From positions 186,001 to 250,000 of the forward strand of contig JACQFZ010000022.1 in the NCBI GenBank assembly GCA_016199745.1: a stretch of DNA of 64,000 bases, in the 5' to 3' direction. A program made the position numbers and the translations under genes. This stretch comes from Gammaproteobacteria bacterium. Lineage in GTDB: Bacteria; Pseudomonadota; Gammaproteobacteria; Acidiferrobacterales; Sulfurifustaceae. Under the pieces are notes generated by a model. The model ran no database searches. It was not told the DNA's origin and saw only the letters and a list, made by a program, of their open reading frames with translations. Below, one piece after another: positions 3,847 to 28,930 of the stretch (within the stretch, counting starts at the first letter, position 1; every line of letters begins with the position of its first letter).

Positions 3847-3953
3847 AGCGCTCACCGCCGCCGGTGCCAGCCTTGGCGGTTTGGAGGGCGGTAGATCGCC
3901 GACAAGATGCGCAATTTTTGCGCCAAATTGCTATCCGCCCCATAATTGCGCCC

Positions 3954-6164
3954 ATGGTTACTGTCACTCGTTCTATCGCTTATTCGGCCATCAACACCGC
4001 CAGCCCCGACGCCTGGCTCGAGGCGCTGGCAGCCGATCGCAGCCCTACTGAAATCGACCTCATTGCGCGTGCCTGCCGCTTCGCCGAGCGTGCCCATCAG
4101 GGCCAGACGCGCGCGACCGGCGAGCCGTACTTTCAACACGCGTTCGCCGTCGCCTGCATCCTCGCCGATCTGCGGCTCGATCACGAGACCATCGCTGCCG
4201 CGATTCTACATGACGTCGTCGAGGACACCGACACGACCCTGGCCGACCTATCGCAGCAGTTCGGCCCGCGGGTGGCGGCGTTGGTCGACGGCGTCACCAA
4301 GATGGACGTGATCCACGAATACAAAGGCTTGAGCGCGATCGGCCGGCGCGAGCATGCCCAGGCGGAGAGCCTGCGCAAGATGTTGCTGGCGATGGCGGAA
4401 GACGTCGGCGTGGTGTTGATCAAGCTGGCCGATCGGCTGCACAACATGCGCACGCTCGGGCCGTTTACCGAAGAGAAGCAAAAGCGCATCGCCCGCGAAA
4501 CCATGGACATCTTCGCGCCGCTGGCCAATCGCCTCGGCATCTGGCAGCTCAAGTGGGAGCTGGAAGATTTGGCGTTCCGTTATCTCGAACCGATCGCCTA
4601 CAAGCAGATCGCCGGCCTGTTGGCCGAGAAACGCGTCGATCGCGAGCATTACATCGAACGCTTCGTCGATTGGCTCGGGCAAGAGCTACAGAAGGCCAGC
4701 GTCAAAGCCGATATCAACGGCCGGCCCAAACATATCTACGGCATCTGGCGCAAGATGCGGCGCAAGGGTAAAGACTTCGGGCAGATCTCTGACGTGCGCG
4801 CGGTGCGCATGTTGGTCGATAATGTGCGCGATTGCTATGCCACGCTCGGCGTCGTGCACATGTTGTGGCAGCACATTCCCGGCGAGTTCGACGACTACAT
4901 CGCCACGCCGAAAGAGAACAACTATCGTTCGATTCACACCGCGATCATCGGCCCCGAAGGCAAGACCGTCGAAGTGCAGATCCGCACGCACGAAATGCAT
5001 CAGCAGTCCGAGCTCGGCGTCGCCGCGCACTGGCGCTACAAGGAAGGTGCGCGCTCCGACGAGAGCTTCGACAAGAAGATCGCTTGGCTGCGCACGCTGC
5101 TCGAGTGGAAAGACGAAGTCGCCGAGGCGACCGAGTTCGTCGATCAATTCAAATCGGAGGTGTTCAGCGAACGCGTGTACGTGTTTACACCGAAGGGCAA
5201 GATCATCGATCTGCCGGCGGGCGCGACGCCGCTCGACTTCGCCTATCACGTGCATACCGATATCGGTCACCGCTGCCGCGGCGCCAAGGTCAACGGCCGC
5301 ATCGTGCCGCTGACGTATTCGGTTAAGACCGGCGAACGCGTCGAGGTACTGACGGTGAAAGAGGGCGGCCCATCGCGCGATTGGCTCAATCCGCACCTCG
5401 GTTATCTGCATTCGTCGCGTGCGCGCTCGAAGGTGCAGCACTGGTTTCGGTTACAAAACTACGACGTCAGCGTTACCGACGGCCGCGCACTGCTCGAGCG
5501 CGAGTTCCACCGTTTAGGCATTGCCGACGTCAACTACGAACGTCTGACGAACCACTTCGGCTTTCCCAAGGTCGACGATTTTCTCGCCGCCATCGGTCGT
5601 GGCGATGTAAAGCCGTCGCAGATCATGACGGCGGTGCAAGAGCTCATCGAGCCGCGGCCGAAGGAGACCAAGCCGGCGTCGATTCCATCGTCGCCGACAC
5701 GCACCAATGCGCCAACCGGTTTGACGATCCAAGGGATCGGTAATCTGTTGACGCGCATGGGCCGTTGTTGCAATCCGGTGCCGGGCGATCCGATTTTGGG
5801 ATTCATTACTCGCGGTCGCGGTATCACGGTGCATCGCCGCGATTGCCAGAATACGTTGCGTCACCGTGACGAGCACGACGAACGCCTGATCGAAGTGAGC
5901 TGGGGTGCGCAGGCCGGCCGCACGTTTCCGGTCGACATCGAAATCATCGCCTACGAGCGTTCCGGCCTACTGCGCGACATCACCGCGCTGTTGGCCAACG
6001 AGCCTATCAATGTGATTGCCGTGAACACGTTGACCGACAAGGCGCAGCACGTCGCGCACATGACCTTTACGTTGGAAGTTCCTGATATCGACGCGCTTGC
6101 GCGGGTGCTGGCGTTGCTCGATCGAATCCCGAACGTGATGGAAGTTCGGCGGAAAGTGCAATAA
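3954..6164 (+). CDS. relA: RelA/SpoT-family (p)ppGpp synthetase with intact hydrolase motif
   Basis: A 736-residue long RSH enzyme controlling the stringent response. Domains in order: HD hydrolase (about 40-200), synthetase (about 250-365), TGS (about 408-468), and a C-terminal zinc-finger/ACT region (about 640-735, with RMGRCCNPVPGDPI). The TGS-adjacent text (PSRDWLNPHLGYLHSSRARSK) and the EFDD motif at 311-314 are RelA-type. Yet the HD site reads HDVVED at 86-91, with a further His at 62 and LADRLHNMR downstream, so the hydrolase centre looks intact, unlike enterobacterial RelA. The start is uncertain: the ATG at 3954 gives normal RelA length but has no clear ribosome binding site, and a GTG 30 codons upstream is possible. 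Confidence 0.93.
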   Translation: MVTVTRSIAYSAINTASPDAWLEALAADRSPTEIDLIARACRFAERAHQGQTRATGEPYFQHAFAVACILADLRLDHETIAAAILHDVVEDTDTTLADLSQQFGPRVAALVDGVTKMDVIHEYKGLSAIGRREHAQAESLRKMLLAMAEDVGVVLIKLADRLHNMRTLGPFTEEKQKRIARETMDIFAPLANRLGIWQLKWELEDLAFRYLEPIAYKQIAGLLAEKRVDREHYIERFVDWLGQELQKASVKADINGRPKHIYGIWRKMRRKGKDFGQISDVRAVRMLVDNVRDCYATLGVVHMLWQHIPGEFDDYIATPKENNYRSIHTAIIGPEGKTVEVQIRTHEMHQQSELGVAAHWRYKEGARSDESFDKKIAWLRTLLEWKDEVAEATEFVDQFKSEVFSERVYVFTPKGKIIDLPAGATPLDFAYHVHTDIGHRCRGAKVNGRIVPLTYSVKTGERVEVLTVKEGGPSRDWLNPHLGYLHSSRARSKVQHWFRLQNYDVSVTDGRALLEREFHRLGIADVNYERLTNHFGFPKVDDFLAAIGRGDVKPSQIMTAVQELIEPRPKETKPASIPSSPTRTNAPTGLTIQGIGNLLTRMGRCCNPVPGDPILGFITRGRGITVHRRDCQNTLRHRDEHDERLIEVSWGAQAGRTFPVDIEIIAYERSGLLRDITALLANEPINVIAVNTLTDKAQHVAHMTFTLEVPDIDALARVLALLDRIPNVMEVRRKVQ

Positions 6165-6177
6165 ACGGCAGTCGTGG

Positions 6178-7119
6178 TTAAGATGAGGCGCTCGCCTTTT
6201 TCAGCGTCGGTCTGATGGCTCGCGGTCGTCGCAATCGTGCATAATTTTTTACGACGATGTCGCCAATGACGGCGATCATGACGACGGTACCGCCGATGAC
6301 CGTATTGGTCGACGGTATTTCGAGAAACACCAGCCATACCCAGAACGGCGACAACGGCGTATCGAGCGCGCCGATCAAGGCGGTTTGCGCGGCGGGAATC
6401 AGGCGCGAGCCGATGATGAAGAACGTGAGGCCGATGGTCATCTGCACGAAGCCGAACAGCACCAAATAAATCATGTCGACCGGCGCGGCCGCGAGCGGCG
6501 TCGCCAGCGGCAGCGTGATGATTGCGACGACGAGATTCGATAAGCATGCCGTCGGCAGCATGGCGATGGTTCGATAACGTCGGACCATGACCGTGATCGC
6601 GGCTGTTGCCAATGTCATGATCAGCGCCAATAAATTACCGAGCATATTTCCATTCAGACCGGCGCTGTTGAGCATGACGGCGACGCCGGCGAACGCTAAG
6701 ACGCTCGCCATCCATGTGCTGAGCGATGTCCGCTCGCGTAACCAGAGCCAGGCGAGCAGCGCTGTCAAGAACGGCAACGTGGCATAAATGACGGCGACAT
6801 CGGCGACCGTCGTCAGCTTGAGCGACGAGATAAAGGCAGTCATTCCCAAGGCCGACAACAGTGTGACGATCCAGCCCGGCCAACCGATGGAGCGGATCGC
6901 GGCCCAGGTGCCGCGACGATAGTGCCAGACGATATAGCCGGCGACGAACAGCCCGCCAAACACGCCGCGCCAAAACAATGTGGTCCAGGCATCGAGCGGA
7001 ATCAGGCGCGTGAATAAACCGGCGGTGCTCCAGGCGACCGCGGAAATGGTGACGAGCAACAATCCCATGCGGTGACTGGCGTGCGCATCCGAATGCGCGC
7101 CGTTGTTGTTTTTAGTCAT
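6178..7119 (-). CDS. EamA/DMT-family transporter (RhaT/YdcZ-like)
   Basis: A 313-residue inner-membrane protein with about ten hydrophobic segments arranged as two repeats of the EamA fold, as in drug/metabolite transporters. The first repeat begins GLLLVTISAVAWSTAGLFTR and the second contains MTIGLTFFIIGSRLIPAAQTALIG, a typical DMT second-half block. The substrate cannot be inferred. The ATG at 7119 is preceded by GAGG at eight bases; a TTG two codons upstream is less likely. The gene ends a few bases from the convergent relA and lies 34 bases downstream of the acyltransferase gene on the same strand, so the two may share a transcript. Confidence 0.88.
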   Translation of the reverse strand: MTKNNNGAHSDAHASHRMGLLLVTISAVAWSTAGLFTRLIPLDAWTTLFWRGVFGGLFVAGYIVWHYRRGTWAAIRSIGWPGWIVTLLSALGMTAFISSLKLTTVADVAVIYATLPFLTALLAWLWLRERTSLSTWMASVLAFAGVAVMLNSAGLNGNMLGNLLALIMTLATAAITVMVRRYRTIAMLPTACLSNLVVAIITLPLATPLAAAPVDMIYLVLFGFVQMTIGLTFFIIGSRLIPAAQTALIGALDTPLSPFWVWLVFLEIPSTNTVIGGTVVMIAVIGDIVVKNYARLRRPRAIRPTLKKASASS

Positions 7120-7152: not shown

Positions 7153-8928
7153 TCAGCGGCCTTGCCGAACGTGGCGGTCGGCCGATCGTGTCAACGTCGG
7201 TGTCACGGCGTCGGTGGGTTGCATCAGCGTTTCAAAAACCACACCGATGGATTCTTCGAGCAGGGCGGCAAAGTGCGCGGTGTCGTCGCGATAGCCGGTA
7301 ATAGCCACCAGCGTATGACCGCGTTGCGGTATGTAGCCGATGCCAAAACCGTCGGCTCGTACCGGTGCGAATGCCAGCAGCTCTAAATTGGGAATATCGC
7401 CGTTGGTTTGCGGATGGACGCGCACGGACGAGCTGCACAGTACCGTCGGCCCGAGCACTGCCTGGTAGGTGGCATCGGCAAATAGCGCCGGCATCCGACC
7501 TAGTTGTTGGGCGACACGTTGGAGCGCGAACAAGTGCCGGTTAATTCCTTCGCCTTTGCGCGAGTGCGCGGCGCGCGTGGTCATTTCTTCCATCGCTCGA
7601 TAAGCGAGGCCGCTGAGCTCCGAGGTTGCGGCGCCGGCTAACAATCGCCGGCAAAACGCCAGCGAGCTTGGTGTGACCGGATGAACCGCCTCGGTTCGTC
7701 CGTCGACGAATCGGCGCATATGGACTGGCTTATATACGCTGGTGATCGTCCCCGTCAGTTTTAGATAGCTGAGCTGAATGGCCAACTGAATCGCATGATC
7801 CAGTGTGGAAAGATCGGCCGGCGATTGCCACTTCACGACGACGGTGCGTAGACCACGACAGCATGTTGCACGCGCCGTTTGCGCGCGGCGCAGGTCGATC
7901 GCGCAGGCCTCGCGGTCCCAAGCGAGTGGTGCTATCGGCATAAGCCTTGGCAGCGGTGACGGCGTGAGCAAATCCATATACGGCAGCCGATCGCAGATTT
8001 TTTGCGCGAGCAACGCGCAGGCATGTCCATCGACGGCGCTGTGCTCCATGTTGATGCCGAAAAATGGTTGCTCGAACACGACGAGCTGAAGCACCTTGTC
8101 GTACCAACGGTTCGATGCGTGCTCGTGCAAGATCCGATTCGCCAATATCGCCGGGTTGGCGGATGTATCCGGTTCCAAGCAAAGAACGAAGGCGGCGGTG
8201 TCGATGGTTCGGAGCGTATCTCTCGTCGATGGCGCGCGCCGCAGGCGGCGGCGTAGCGTGGCCCATTCGGTGCGTGGCAACGTTGTCAGAATTCCGAGGC
8301 CTAACTCGGTCGACGGCGTGCGCAAAATTTCTGCGATCGCTGTTTCGATTTCACCGACGCTATGTCTACCGTTATCGGGCGCGGCAATTTTAAAAAGATT
8401 TCCGCCATGGGCGACGACAAAATGTTTATTGCCGCTGGTTCGGACGATACGATCGCGGCGTTCCCCCGGAAGACGAATGGATCCGAACATAAACTCGTAC
8501 TGCGCGTCGCACAGCGGGTTGCCACGCTCGGAATCGCTGCCGAAGGACTTGCTCTGTATTTGCCGTGCCAGCTCCAGCGCGCTTGCGGCGATGACGGCGG
8601 CGCGCCGCGAAAAGCGGCGTGTGCTGATCGCAGTGGGCAGCCGGCATAGCAATGCCGGGTTGTGATAGGGCGAAAGCGGTTCGCGCGCCTGCAAATACAT
8701 ATCCCGCCAAAATTTAGCGACGTAGTTGTCGGTGGTGTCGCTCGTTGGCTGAGCGAGTTGTTGCTGCAGCAGCGGACCGTCGTGCGCGAGAAAATCTTGA
8801 ACCAGTCGCTCGGTTTGCAGAAAGGCGTTTTCGGAGACTAGCGGACGCACGATCTCGAGATAGCGGCGACAGGTTTGTTCGAGCGACGGTGGTTGCAGTT
8901 TTTTTAGTGCGCTGGAATTGCGAATCAT
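7153..8928 (-). CDS. Choline/carnitine O-acyltransferase family protein
   Basis: A 591-residue protein matching the choline/carnitine acyltransferase fold, which transfers acyl groups between CoA and carnitine or choline. Visible family blocks are YEFMFGSIRLPGERRD (about 144-159), the catalytic-histidine block NMEHSAVDG (293-301, His296), RTEAVHP (about 455), and KGEGINRHLFAL (about 500), which corresponds to the GEGxDRHL block of eukaryotic enzymes. An S-S-S-V stretch near the C-terminus resembles the STS substrate-binding motif. The start ATG at 8928 has a strong GGAGG seven bases upstream; upstream codons in frame lack similarity. The family is mostly eukaryotic and is sporadic in bacteria. 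No carnitine catabolism genes are adjacent, so substrate is open. Confidence 0.85.
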   Translation of the reverse strand: MIRNSSALKKLQPPSLEQTCRRYLEIVRPLVSENAFLQTERLVQDFLAHDGPLLQQQLAQPTSDTTDNYVAKFWRDMYLQAREPLSPYHNPALLCRLPTAISTRRFSRRAAVIAASALELARQIQSKSFGSDSERGNPLCDAQYEFMFGSIRLPGERRDRIVRTSGNKHFVVAHGGNLFKIAAPDNGRHSVGEIETAIAEILRTPSTELGLGILTTLPRTEWATLRRRLRRAPSTRDTLRTIDTAAFVLCLEPDTSANPAILANRILHEHASNRWYDKVLQLVVFEQPFFGINMEHSAVDGHACALLAQKICDRLPYMDLLTPSPLPRLMPIAPLAWDREACAIDLRRAQTARATCCRGLRTVVVKWQSPADLSTLDHAIQLAIQLSYLKLTGTITSVYKPVHMRRFVDGRTEAVHPVTPSSLAFCRRLLAGAATSELSGLAYRAMEEMTTRAAHSRKGEGINRHLFALQRVAQQLGRMPALFADATYQAVLGPTVLCSSSVRVHPQTNGDIPNLELLAFAPVRADGFGIGYIPQRGHTLVAITGYRDDTAHFAALLEESIGVVFETLMQPTDAVTPTLTRSADRHVRQGR

Positions 8929-9037
8929 TGACTGGCCTCCATGCCAGATCGTCGATGGTTTTTGTGAGGAGTTGTTGTTGTCTGCTTCTTCATGAAGCAT
9001 GACAGGACTACATGGCGGCCTAATTACAGCGGCGCGA

Positions 9038-9228: not shown

Positions 9229-10950
9229 TTATCGTTTGATCAGCGTTTTCAGCTCGTCGATGGCGCGTTCCGCCGGTAATTCGCGGGCCGCCGCATCGCG
9301 TCGGTGCTTGTATTCAATGGTGCCTTTATCCAATCCTTTTTCGCCGATCACCAGGCGATGCGGAATTCCGATCAGGTCGATGTCGGCGAACATCACGCCC
9401 GGACGTTCGTTGCGATCGTCGAGCAGGACGTCGTAGCCGGCAACGGTGAGCTCGTTGTAGAGCTGATCGACCGCTGCTTTCACGCGTTCGGATTTCTGAT
9501 AACCGATCGGCACCAGGGCAACGTGGAATGGCGCGATCGTGTCCGGCCAGACGATGCCTTTGTCGTCGTTGTTCTGTTCGATAGCGGCGGCGACGACGCG
9601 CGATACGCCGATGCCGTAACAGCCCATGGCCATCACTGTCGCTTGACCACTTTCGTCGAGCACGGTCGCATTCAGCGTCTCGCTGTATTGCTTGTCGAGC
9701 TGAAAGATATGGCCGACCTCGATGCCGCGGCGGATCGACAGCTGGCCTTCGCAGCCGCCGTTGTTCGACGTCGGGCAGGGATCGCCGGCGACTACGTTGC
9801 GCAGATCGGCGATGACGGGCTCGGGCAGGTCGCGACCCCAATTCACATTGATCGAGTGCTTGTCGTTGACGTTGGCACCGCAGACGAAATCGGCGAGACG
9901 CGCCGCGCTCTCGTCGACGATCACCGGAATTGTCAGGCCGACCGGACCGATCGAACCCGGGTCGCAACCGGTGGCGGCTTGCACCTCACCGGGCGTGACG
10001 AATTCGATCGGCTTCGCCACTTGCGGCAGCTTGGCCGCTTTGATCGGGTTGAGCTCGTGATCGCCGCGCAGAATCAGCGCGACCACGCCGCCGGTACCGC
10101 GTACCAATAGCGTCTTCACCGTTTGGCTCGGTTTCATTTTTAAGAAACGGCTGAGCGCATCGATCGTGTGACAACCGGGGGTATCGACCGTCGTCAGCGC
10201 TCCGTTCGGCGCGGCGCGCTTACCGAGCGGCGGTAACGCTTGTGCGAGCTCGATGTTGGCGGCGTAGTGGCAGCGGTCGCACAACGCGATAGCGTCTTCG
10301 CCGGAGTCGGCGAGCACATGAAATTCGTGCGAGGCGCGGCCACCGATCGAGCCGGTGTCGGCTTCGACTGGGCGGAACTGTAAGCCTAGACGGGTGAAGG
10401 TACGCGTGTAGGTCTGGTACATCAGCTCGTAGGTTTCGCGTAGCGACGTCATGTCGATATGAAACGAGTACGCATCCTTCATCAGAAATTCGCGCGCGCG
10501 CATGACGCCGAAACGCGGCCGGATTTCGTCGCGGAATTTCATTTGGATCTGGTAGAAGTTCGCCGGTAATTGGCGATAGCTGCGCAACTCGTTGCGCGCG
10601 AGATCGGTGATAACTTCTTCATGCGTCGGGCCGAAGCAAAAATCGCGATGATGACGATCTTGCAGCCGCAATAGCTCGGGACCGTACTTCTCCCAGCGAC
10701 CGGATTCCTGCCACAGCTCGGCCGGCTGCACCGCCGGCATCAGCACTTCCTGCGCGCCGGCACGGTTCATTTCTTCGCGCACGATGTTCTCGACTTTATG
10801 CAGCACCCGCAGGCCCAGCGGCAGCCAGGTGTACAACCCGGCGGCGAGCTTGCGGATCATGCCGGCGCGCAGCATCAGTTTATGCGAGATGACTTCAGCG
10901 TCGGCTGGTGTTTCTTTGACGGTGGCGAGGAGTAATTTTGACGTACGCAT
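9229..10950 (-). CDS. proS: Prolyl-tRNA synthetase
   Basis: A 573-residue class II aminoacyl-tRNA synthetase, the normal length for bacterial ProRS. Motif 1 to 2 text is visible ([19 protein letters not shown] followed by [12 protein letters not shown]), then the YbaK-like editing insertion in the middle (about 225-385, with [11 protein letters not shown] and [10 protein letters not shown]), then motif 3 ([16 protein letters not shown]) and the C-terminal anticodon-binding domain ([11 protein letters not shown]). The start ATG is followed by [20 protein letters not shown], the usual N-terminus. All catalytic blocks appear intact. Transcribed alone or with mak upstream. Confidence 0.96.
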
Positions 10951-23157: not shown

Positions 23158-23408
23158 GTGCGCGCCGCTAAGCTCGGCTGCGTCAGGCCCGGGCGTACTG
23201 CCACTAAAAATTTAAACTGGCGCGTAACGCCGGTCAGACTGGAGGCGACCACCCACGGGTCTTCGCACGAGCGTCCGGTCGGCAATAGCACGCCGTCGTA
23301 GCCGAGCGTGTCGGCAGCGACGGCGATCTGTTTCACGTAGTCATAGTTGACCTCGCGCGCCCCTTCGCAAAGTTCTAGCCGTATCGGCACGTAAAAAATT
23401 TTCGGCAA
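23157..23408 (-). pseudogene. ssuD: ssuD remnant (FMNH2-dependent alkanesulfonate monooxygenase), N-terminal fragment
   Basis: About 75 of the roughly 380 residues of SsuD remain: [20 protein letters not shown], then [20 protein letters not shown] and [19 protein letters not shown]. The extreme N-terminus is altered: IFYVP is followed by IRLELC instead of the conserved THGDGRYLGT-like segment. The frame then runs into cysW sequence and stops. It overlaps the damaged end of ssuA. The catalytic and flavin-binding parts are absent. Confidence 0.85.
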
Positions 23409-24292
23409 TTTTCTGTTGCTCAGCCAACACCACTGGGCTTACCGGTTTGGTGCCGTAGCTCAGGCGCGAGACGGCGAGGCCGATGATGTCGGCGTTCAAT
23501 CCGGTCTGACCGACCAGGAGATCGGTCGCTTCTTGCGGATGCACCGCTGCCCATTTATCGAGCTTGGCAAGCTTATCGAGCGTCGCCGCGATGATGTCCG
23601 GTCGGCGATCGGCATATGGACGCGCCGCTAGGAAGAACACGTGGTTCGATACGACGCCGGTACCGTCAGCGAGCACGCGCGCACCGAGTTGCTTCTGGGC
23701 CGCGGCGAGGAACGGATCCCAGATGACCCACGCATCTACCGCGCCACGTTCGAACGCCGCACGTGCGTCGGCCGGCGCGAGATACGAAACCTGTACGTCG
23801 TTGTAAGCGATGCCGACTTGCTCCAGCGCCTTCACTAACAGGTAGTGCACATTCGAGCCTTTGTTCAGCACGACCCGCTTGCCTTTGAGATCGGCGACCG
23901 ATTTGAGCGCTGAATCCTTCGGCACGATGATCGCTTCGCTGGTCGGTGCCGGCGGTACGTTACCGACGTACACGAGATCGGCACCGGCGGCTTGCGCGAA
24001 GATCGGCGGCGCTTCGCCGACGAGGCCGAAGTCGATTGTGCCGACGTTGAGGCCTTCGAGGAGTTGCGGACCGGCCGGGAACTCGGTCCATTTAACGTCG
24101 ACGTTAAGCGCCGCCAGTCGTTGCTCGAGTGTGCCGCGCGCCTTGAGCAGCACTAGCGTGCCGAATTTTTGATAGCCGATGTGCAGTTGCTCATGCGGCT
24201 TGGACGCTGCGCGCAAGGATCAAGCCGAGTGCGACAACGGCTCTGGCAACCGGTTGCGTCCATTGGCGCAACTCTGTATTCGAACGATTCAT
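23341..24292 (-). pseudogene. ssuA: ssuA remnant (periplasmic aliphatic-sulfonate-binding protein), frameshifted and C-terminally truncated
   Basis: The ATG at 24292 has GGAG eight bases upstream and starts a signal peptide (VARAVVALGLILARSVQAA) that hits a stop at the mature junction. The mature protein continues in another frame from about 24216: HEQLHIGYQKFGTLVLLKAR, PAGPQLLEGLNVGTIDFGL, PPIFAQAAGADLVYVGNVPP and DARAAFERGAVDAWVIWDPF, all SsuA blocks. About 270 residues are preserved, but the last 20 or so are replaced where ssuD sequence begins (near 23395). A frameshift at the signal cleavage site plus a lost C-terminus make export and function unlikely. If the frameshift were a sequencing error, the protein would still lack its C-terminus. 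Confidence 0.85.
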
Positions 24293-27493: not shown

Positions 27494-28930
27494 ATGCCGG
27501 GGTTGAGTCGTCGCAGTCGCAAGAGCGCAGCTGCCCCCGTTGCCCATTCCGCCGATATCGCTGGTTCCGTCGGTTCCAAGCGTTGGTCCGACACCTTCAC
27601 GTTCGTGCTGGCATTGACCGGCGCCGCCATTACCTTCAAGACCCTCTGGCAGTTTCCCTATCTCGTGAGCGAGAACGGCGGTGGTGCGTTCATCTTGATT
27701 TATTTGTTGCTGGCATTTCTCGTCGGTGCGCCGTTGTTGATTGCGGAAGTGATGCTGGGGCGGCGCGCACATGCGTCACCGATCACGGCGCTTGCCGATT
27801 TAGGCCGGGGCGCGCGTGGCGGTCGACATTGGGCGCTGCTGGGGTGGTTGACGGTACTCGGTGGGTTTATCGTTTTCTCTTATTTAAGCGTGGTCGCCGG
27901 TTGGGCCATCGGCTACTTCGTGCGCACGGTATTCGGCGTGATGACCGGGCTTACCGCCGACGGTATCGCCAGCGTGTTCACCGGCTTCGTGCGCGATCCG
28001 GAAAAACAGATTTTCTGGTACAGCCTGTTCATTACGACGACACTGACGATTACCGCCGGTGGCCTGCGCCGGCGGCTCGAGCCGACGATTCGGGTATTGG
28101 TACCGTTACTGTTAGTGGCGCTGCTGACGCTCGCCGGTTATGCGCTCAGCGTCGGTAATTTTCGCGACGCCGCAACGTTTTTGTTTACGCCCGATTTCGC
28201 CAAGCTGTCGCCGGTCGCCTGGCTGGCGGCGTTGGCGCAGGTATTTTTCAGTCTCGGTCTCGGCACGGGTATGGCGATGATGTACGGCGCCTATCTCGAT
28301 CGGGAGGCATCGATCGCGCGCGCGGCGTTGACGGTCGTCGGGCTGGATGCATTGATCGCGGTGTTCGGCAGTGTCATTGTCTTTGCCGTTTTGTTGGGCG
28401 GCGGCGTAGCGCCGACTTCCGGCCCTAGTTTGGTGTTCCAGGCGTTGCCGTTGGCGTTCGACCATTTGCCGTACGGCAGATGGTTCGGCAGCTTGTTCTT
28501 CGCGCTAATCGTCATGATTGCGTTGGCGACGGCGATCGCGCTGATCGAGCCGGTGATCGCCTGGATGACCGAGCGGTTTGGTATCGCCCGCCGGCGCGCG
28601 GCGATCGTGGTTGGCTTGTGCGCCTGGTTGCTCGGGCTGGTGTCGCTATTTTCATTCAACTATTGGGCGTTCTCGTTTAAATTTTTCGGCATGGAAAAAC
28701 AGATCGGCGCGTTCGACGTGCTGCAAATCCTCACCGCTCAAGGCATGTTGCCGCTGGCCGGTTTAGCGCTGGCGCTATTCGCCGGCTGGTTTCTGCCGGT
28801 CGACAATGCCCGTGCTGATTTAGCGTTGCGCTCGTCGTGCGCGTTTGATGCTTGGCTGTGGTTGTTGCGCCTCGTCGTGCCGCCGTTATTGCTGCTGTTG
28901 TTCGTCAGCCTATCGATCATCTACGCGTGA
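27494..28930 (+). CDS. Sodium-dependent transporter, NSS/SNF family
   Basis: A 478-residue inner-membrane protein with about 11-12 helices, of the neurotransmitter:sodium symporter family (LeuT fold). The first helix text WSDTFTFVLALTGAAITFKT, then LWQFPYLVSENGGGAF, carries the unwound TM1 that binds Na+ and substrate (usual form GNxWRFPYL; here the Gly-Asn is Lys-Thr and Arg is Gln). TM6-region QVFFSLGLGTGMAMMYGAYL and PVIAWMTERFG are clear family marks. An amino-acid or related substrate is likely but unspecified. AGGGGG stands nine bases before the ATG. Its stop overlaps the ratA start (GTGA). Confidence 0.88.
   Translation: MPGLSRRSRKSAAAPVAHSADIAGSVGSKRWSDTFTFVLALTGAAITFKTLWQFPYLVSENGGGAFILIYLLLAFLVGAPLLIAEVMLGRRAHASPITALADLGRGARGGRHWALLGWLTVLGGFIVFSYLSVVAGWAIGYFVRTVFGVMTGLTADGIASVFTGFVRDPEKQIFWYSLFITTTLTITAGGLRRRLEPTIRVLVPLLLVALLTLAGYALSVGNFRDAATFLFTPDFAKLSPVAWLAALAQVFFSLGLGTGMAMMYGAYLDREASIARAALTVVGLDALIAVFGSVIVFAVLLGGGVAPTSGPSLVFQALPLAFDHLPYGRWFGSLFFALIVMIALATAIALIEPVIAWMTERFGIARRRAAIVVGLCAWLLGLVSLFSFNYWAFSFKFFGMEKQIGAFDVLQILTAQGMLPLAGLALALFAGWFLPVDNARADLALRSSCAFDAWLWLLRLVVPPLLLLLFVSLSIIYA

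Follow-up and report, generated by a model that had tools for sequence, protein, structure and literature searches.

A gammaproteobacterial member of the choline/carnitine acyltransferase family with conserved acceptor residues and a changed donor loop

The DNA analysed here, referred to as the window (64,000 nucleotides, positions 186,001 to 250,000 of contig JACQFZ010000022.1, assembly GCA_016199745.1), carries a real and intact gene of the choline/carnitine acyltransferase family (PF00755). The family itself is known, and the gene is an uncommon member of it in a host where one would not expect it, not a new kind of system. With moderate confidence we regard the product as a catalytically competent carnitine O-acyltransferase working with a thioester partner, on the assumption that CoA is bound in an altered way. 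To our knowledge, reversible acyl transfer to carnitine has been treated as a eukaryotic activity.

The reading frame runs on the minus strand from an ATG at 8928-8926 to a stop at 7155-7153, i.e. 591 codons:

7153..8928, minus strand: PF00755 choline/carnitine acyltransferase family gene, 591 aa (frame, Pfam, model, structure alignment)
8936..8940, minus strand: GGAGG ribosome-binding site with a 7-nt spacer to the acyltransferase ATG (read directly)

This gene is the sole PF00755 match in the 4.26 Mb assembly, with 394.1 bits (cut-off 22.3), E 1.4e-117 and profile positions 4-574 of 574 covered. The sequence-only reading had assigned it to this family on kept catalytic motifs, and the assignment holds: the profile match is full and the three blocks quoted, NMEHSAVDG, RTEAVHP and KGEGINRHL, are all found in the translation. 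A phmmer comparison with solved structures returned 15 distinct sequences, every one ChAT, CrAT, CPT2 or carnitine octanoyltransferase (COT); human ChAT was the best PDB match by sequence (E 2.6e-50), and human CrAT gave 1.1e-46. No family was matched in an NCBIfam search at E 0.001.

The structure prediction proposed in the same reading as a check was made with AlphaFold2, the input being the window protein together with 23 relatives from bacteria. The ligand-free model (mean pLDDT 84, pTM 0.87) has the two-domain fold of CrAT, ChAT, COT and CPT2 and aligns with the CrAT and ChAT structures at Z of about 40. In VIA-align the values were 40.8 with mouse CrAT (1ndb, over 561 residues; the human structure is 1nm8), 40.7 with human ChAT (2fy3; also solved as 2fy2), 40.6 with COT (1xl7, compared by fold only) and about 39 with CPT2 (38.8 with 2h4t). 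The 23 family entries listed span Z 38.3-40.8, and the first fold from outside the family is at 15.7. Identity to CrAT, ChAT or CPT2 is about 25-30 % (25 % to CrAT and 28-29 % to ChAT, the top value among solved relatives, in the structural alignments), and at this level a prediction of the acceptor from a few residues can fail.

The active site was compared in an alignment of 47 rows in CrAT numbering, which besides the window protein holds 43 bacterial relatives and three chains from animals. The catalytic His is missing in 18 of the 47 rows, and the positions below refer where stated to the 29 His-bearing ones:

8041..8043, minus strand: codon of H296, equivalent to the catalytic His343 of CrAT (47-row alignment)
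8029..8031, minus strand: codon of D300, at the E347 position of CrAT; Asp in 28 of 29 His-bearing rows (alignment)
7801..7830, minus strand: residues 367-376, the shortened loop replacing the K419/K423 CoA-phosphate loop of CrAT, six alignment columns deleted (alignment, model)
7729..7734, minus strand: codons of Y399 (equivalent to Y452) and K400 (at the E453 position of CrAT, here Lys) (alignment)
7693..7695, minus strand: codon of T412, equivalent to T465; carnitine-type, Val in ChAT (alignment)
7537..7539, minus strand: codon of R464, equivalent to R518; carnitine-type, Asn in ChAT (alignment)
7429..7431, minus strand: codon of S500, equivalent to S554 (alignment)

Passages of PMC11852590 identify H343 as the catalytic base of CrAT. 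In the alignment H343, D430, Y452, T465, R518, S554 and F566 are all kept, as H296, D377, Y399, T412, R464, S500 and F520, respectively, and H343, Y452, T465 and R518 are also common to CPT2. The S-T-S motif retains S554 (S500), but S552 is changed to Cys498. At the M564 position the window protein has Leu where CPT2 has Gly, and a narrower acyl pocket would be expected from this. We take T465 and R518 to be carnitine-contacting residues which mark that branch of the family, and Val, Asn and Asn at T465, T467 and R518 to be the signature of the choline branch. Y452, T465 and R518 are all present as Y399, T412 and R464. As human ChAT has Val/Asn/Asn at T465/T467/R518 and the window protein Thr/Ala/Arg, the acceptor site appears to be of the carnitine type. 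Arg at the R518 position occurs in nine of the 29 His-bearing rows (CrAT, CPT2, the window protein, L002, L008, L032, L033, L038 and L042).

In the proposed mechanism, an acyl group would pass from a thioester to the 3-hydroxyl of L-carnitine, or to that of a closely similar quaternary-ammonium carboxylate with a hydroxyl group, or in the reverse direction. The general base would be H296, while Y399, T412 and R464 would hold the carboxylate, and S500 and F520 the rest of the acceptor; part of this assignment of roles is presumed by us. It is quite unlikely that the acceptor is instead choline or another alcohol, for example in a choline ester made for storage or for export via the DMT transporter encoded next to it. 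That ChAT is the nearest solved relative in sequence speaks for choline, but the ChAT residues at the three distinguishing positions are absent.

The donor site differs more. According to passages of PMC11852590, K419 and K423 of CrAT recognise the 3'-phosphate of CoA, and D430 and E453 are hydrogen-bonded to each other in the pantetheine site. In the window protein the donor loop is six columns shorter, K419 is deleted, K423 is replaced by Pro370 and E453 by Lys400, while D430 is kept as D377; thus neither the lysines nor the D430-E453 pair are present. The linking loop is short in the model too, in which a strand covers 361-367 and a helix begins at 376 (mean pLDDT 86 for 361-370 and 78 for 371-380). 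An 8-column insertion after the S-S-S motif, a further difference from CrAT, belongs to the regions modelled with the least certainty (pLDDT below 50 at 505-509). Among the 29 His-bearing rows, the loss of both CoA lysines combined with Lys in place of E453 is unique to the window protein. At the K423 position there is Lys in 24 rows, Leu in four rows of the gammaproteobacterial family f155 and Pro in the window protein; at the E453 position, Glu in 27, Gln in one and Lys in the window protein only. The K419 position is less conserved (Lys in 6/29). These replacements make ordinary CoA binding doubtful, and acyl-CoA use cannot be assumed from the motifs. CoA could still be used if basic residues elsewhere took over from the lost lysines.

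It is possible, although unlikely, that the acceptor is carnitine-like and the donor an acyl carrier protein or a pantetheine thioester without 3'-phospho-ADP, and not free acyl-CoA. Both 3'-phosphate lysines have been lost through the shortened loop and E453 has become Lys, while the His and the acceptor site were kept, which is in favour of such a donor. There is also a parallel within the family: passages of PMC10901484 describe cAT domains of fungal polyketide synthases (LtbA, Tv6-931) which offload ACP-linked chains, using ACP-bound donors and polyol or glycoside acceptors. These domains, likened here by description, are fused to the PKS, whereas the window protein stands alone, and neither PKS nor ACP was found among the nine window proteins scanned with Pfam. 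An Arg or Lys from elsewhere could replace the lysines, and the model is ligand-free. Moreover, the f155 proteins L002 and L008 are without the lysines yet keep H343, Y452, E453, T465 and R518, so CoA may be tolerated without them.

The gene lies in a two-gene insertion between core genes:

3864..6164, plus strand: open frame of the spoT/relA family, left border of the two-gene insertion (Pfam, synteny)
6178..7119, minus strand: EamA/DMT-family transporter gene, possible operon partner (Pfam; start and gap read)
9229..10950, minus strand: proS, right border of the two-gene insertion (Pfam, synteny)

The ATG of the DMT gene follows 33 nt after the acyltransferase stop on the same strand, and cotranscription of the two is plausible from this arrangement. 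The gap between spoT and proS is about 3 kb in the window, with the two genes in it, compared to 344 bp in Sulfuricaulis limicola HA5 (G006), where the gap and 300 bases on each side contained no ATG-started ORF of at least 120 aa. The gap measures 2.6-6.0 kb in Sulfurifustis variabilis skN76 (G004), G013 and G009, and there neither gene was matched in it. The DMT protein has two paralogs in its own genome (54 and 39 % identical) and matches in 6/59 relatives, with identities of at most 36 %. When the nine neighbouring window proteins were searched by tblastn against loci L001-L046, only the window's own locus (L001) matched, the flanks of L002-L017 being about 1.5 kb long; a conserved neighbourhood of the gene was found in none of these loci.

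Contamination or misbinning of the window was considered and rejected. The contig is 376 kb long, the gene is flanked by the core genes spoT and proS and the wider gene order is kept in relatives, so the gene is not on a stray contaminant contig. The 3-kb insert is unremarkable in composition: a lower correlation with the remainder of the window was seen for 13 of 40 sliding pieces. The GC3 of the acyltransferase (0.657) is the lowest of the nine genes compared, yet a neighbour is at 0.662, and we do not count it as evidence. A tblastn search against plasmids gave no match to the acyltransferase, and two scans of viral contigs gave no relative of it. Elsewhere in the window, about 18.5 kb from the gene, 27494-28930 encodes a protein of the sodium:neurotransmitter symporter family (PF00209, 130 bits).

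The window genome belongs to a lineage of sulfur oxidisers and shares its taxonomic family with Sulfurifustis variabilis and Sulfuricaulis limicola. With the genome itself counted each time, PF00755 was found in 1/57 genomes of the order (34 of the 57 being at least 90 % complete and at most 5 % contaminated), 6/369 sampled from the class and 3/398 from the phylum; it was found in 0/14 control genomes. The family occurred in 12/32 and 1/48 genomes of the orders to which two other carriers belong. A genome of the same genus (G001, 89 % complete) is without the acyltransferase gene, its contig stopping just past proS and leaving the spoT-proS site unreadable. The class and order counts agree with the sporadic bacterial distribution claimed in the sequence-only reading. 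Common vertical inheritance in the order, which that reading had named as an argument against itself, is unsupported with the gene in one of 57 genomes.

Twenty-nine further loci (L018-L046) were obtained by scanning named genomes of bacteria and archaea; this set leans to His-bearing members, as one of the two search patterns includes the catalytic His. They come from Nocardia, Frankia, Actinomadura, Streptomyces and other Actinomycetota, from Gammaproteobacteria MAGs including a Cycloclasticus sponge symbiont, and from a Magnetococcales MAG, Enterococcus florum and two Oscillospiraceae MAGs. The window protein is 19-29 % identical to the bacterial rows, with none close. In a tree of 47 rows it groups with CPT2, ChAT and CrAT with support 92/89 (not starred) on a branch of 1.91, and in a tree of 24 rows with 94/89 (not starred) on a branch of 3.07; the trees hold three animal sequences and are without fungal or protist members, and with 24 rows the AU test allowed two alternative placements (p-AU 0.175 and 0.127). 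The gene was probably gained by horizontal acquisition, with a eukaryote as one possible source. Passages of PMC1472686 class yeast CAT2, a carnitine acetyltransferase, as of eukaryotic origin. No bacterial carnitine acyltransferase appeared in the titles or abstract starts among the literature matches listed, most subscription papers being outside the search, and phrases for bacterial carnitine or choline acyl- or acetyltransferases did not occur in the full texts searched.

The long branch of the 47-row tree and the lost donor residues could also be read as those of a degenerating or moonlighting member with little transferase activity, similar to the bacterial relatives without the catalytic His, which is missing in 18/47 rows including 8/12 of the f155 proteins. 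We consider this very unlikely, as the frame is unbroken and has a good ribosome-binding site in front of it, and relaxed drift would not be expected to leave the His, the Asp and all the acceptor residues in place, as they are here.

The other bacterial members vary widely at these sites. The family f155 (L002, L006, L008-L017) has a PF00755 gene in 12/12 sampled genomes, the catalytic His being replaced by C, S, T or Q in eight of the 12 proteins and K423 being kept in 0/12. In the family f88 Arg replaces the His in all three proteins found (L003-L005), and at eight Nocardia loci (L019, L020, L021, L024, L026, L029, L034 and L044) Glu does so (IEES); seven of these eight are in the site table and keep Y452, T465 and R518. 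In an Oscillospiraceae MAG (L038, 4347-9710) the acyltransferase has H343, Y452, T465, R518 and both CoA lysines, and adjoins an ATPase of a betaine/proline/choline-type ABC transporter (TIGR01186, over the cut-off) and a weakly OsmF-like binding protein. With these residues and neighbours, the protein is a good candidate for a genuine carnitine acyltransferase in bacteria.

At 17 of the 29 loci the acyltransferase is near a gene for a HalD-like Fe/2OG halogenase or hydroxylase, three loci having been tested with Pfam and the remainder by tblastn. Examples are:

HalD-like cassettes: L018 4640-8095; L023 5877-9788; L025 7986-11507

Fifteen of the 17 have a further protein of about 300 aa nearby with at most a weak methyltransferase match, and among the His-bearing rows Gln at the Arg518 position occurs in these 17 and in no others. 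The arrangement, shared by Actinomycetota with Gammaproteobacteria MAGs (a sponge symbiont included), resembles a biosynthetic cassette whose acyl acceptor would be a different one. It is arguably a more interesting lead than the window gene.

The earlier statement that there are no genes for carnitine transport or catabolism nearby is correct for the neighbouring genes scanned but not for the genome, which holds a carnitine dehydrogenase cluster, choline oxidation genes and binding proteins elsewhere. On contig C50, at about 92-99 kb, an L-carnitine dehydrogenase scores 639.9 bits (cut-off 414). The same cluster contains a BKACE protein (322 bits in Pfam; best substrate-specific NCBIfam score 242, cut-off 382), a 4HBT thioesterase matching half of the fused carnitine dehydrogenase model (151 bits, cut-off 592) and a GbdR-like regulator (356 bits, below the cut-off of 480). 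Betaine-aldehyde dehydrogenase (BetB) and choline dehydrogenase (BetA) are encoded on C51 and a choline-sulfatase on C50, all over their cut-offs. Of nine PF04069 (OpuAC-type) proteins in the genome, five are over the choline-binding cut-off (408-473 bits, cut-off 379) and three below it (165, 67 and 60). The ninth, a substrate-binding protein in the window (23341-24216), has a weak OpuAC match and is of the sulfonate (SsuA) type. The choline-type binding proteins are putative carnitine binders. A BCCT carrier (PF02028) was not found in the window's genome, while the same search matched in 4/14 control genomes.

Taken together, this gene content suggests that both L-carnitine and choline can be degraded by the host. 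The choline uptake and oxidation genes are also in favour of a choline acceptor, as is the setting of the 54 % identical DMT paralog, which is flanked on C50 (L105, 3547-8036) by genes for an MTTB-family methyltransferase and a phosphorylcholine phosphatase. This phosphatase gene is one of two related genes, 79 % identical, on C50 and C51, the C50 copy matching phosphorylcholine phosphatase 4as2 with 503 bits. The setting hints that this DMT subfamily may handle quaternary amines.

The link between the acyltransferase contig and the carnitine cluster rests on binning, in an assembly with 2.22 % estimated contamination. Tetranucleotide usage fits, without proving, an origin of the contigs from one genome. 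Correlations with the whole window were 0.70-0.87 for pieces of the own genome and 0.47-0.69 for the homologous regions of five relatives; with 15-kb window pieces they were 0.59-0.81 and 0.37-0.68, respectively, the window pieces giving 0.71-0.81 among themselves. The lowest own-genome values were those of the C50 pieces L105 (0.59-0.69) and L102 (0.64-0.69), and the carnitine-cluster piece L108, also on C50, gave 0.70-0.75. It speaks against the carnitine acyltransferase reading that the cluster is on another contig, and there is no evidence of its co-regulation with the acyltransferase.

If the protein is a carnitine O-acyltransferase, it may act in salvage, converting an imported acylcarnitine and a thiol carrier to an acyl-thioester and carnitine, and the freed carnitine would enter the dehydrogenase pathway. 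As the host seems able to oxidise carnitine, this direction has an obvious benefit, and the transfer would conserve the ester-bond energy that a hydrolase would waste. Alternatively, the enzyme could serve in storage or export of acyl groups. In P. aeruginosa, according to passages of PMC5806209, carnitine and short acylcarnitines are degraded by caiX-cdhCAB-hocS, and the dehydrogenase, BKACE and thioesterase cluster on C50 resembles its cdh part. The Pseudomonas system as described there hydrolyses short-chain acylcarnitines and involves no acyl transfer, whereas the acyltransferase of the window is on a contig separate from the cluster.

We consider it rather unlikely that the donor site has been rebuilt to be independent of the 3'-phospho-ADP of CoA, so that acyl groups would pass from ACP or pantetheine thioesters to carnitine in a carnitine-catabolising bacterium; if true, this would be a bacterial carnitine ester pathway outside CoA metabolism. 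The missing CoA-phosphate lysines provide a natural test of how much of the donor site the family needs. A carnitine acyltransferase together with a carnitine degradation cluster in one bacterium would offer an energy-saving route into acylcarnitines.
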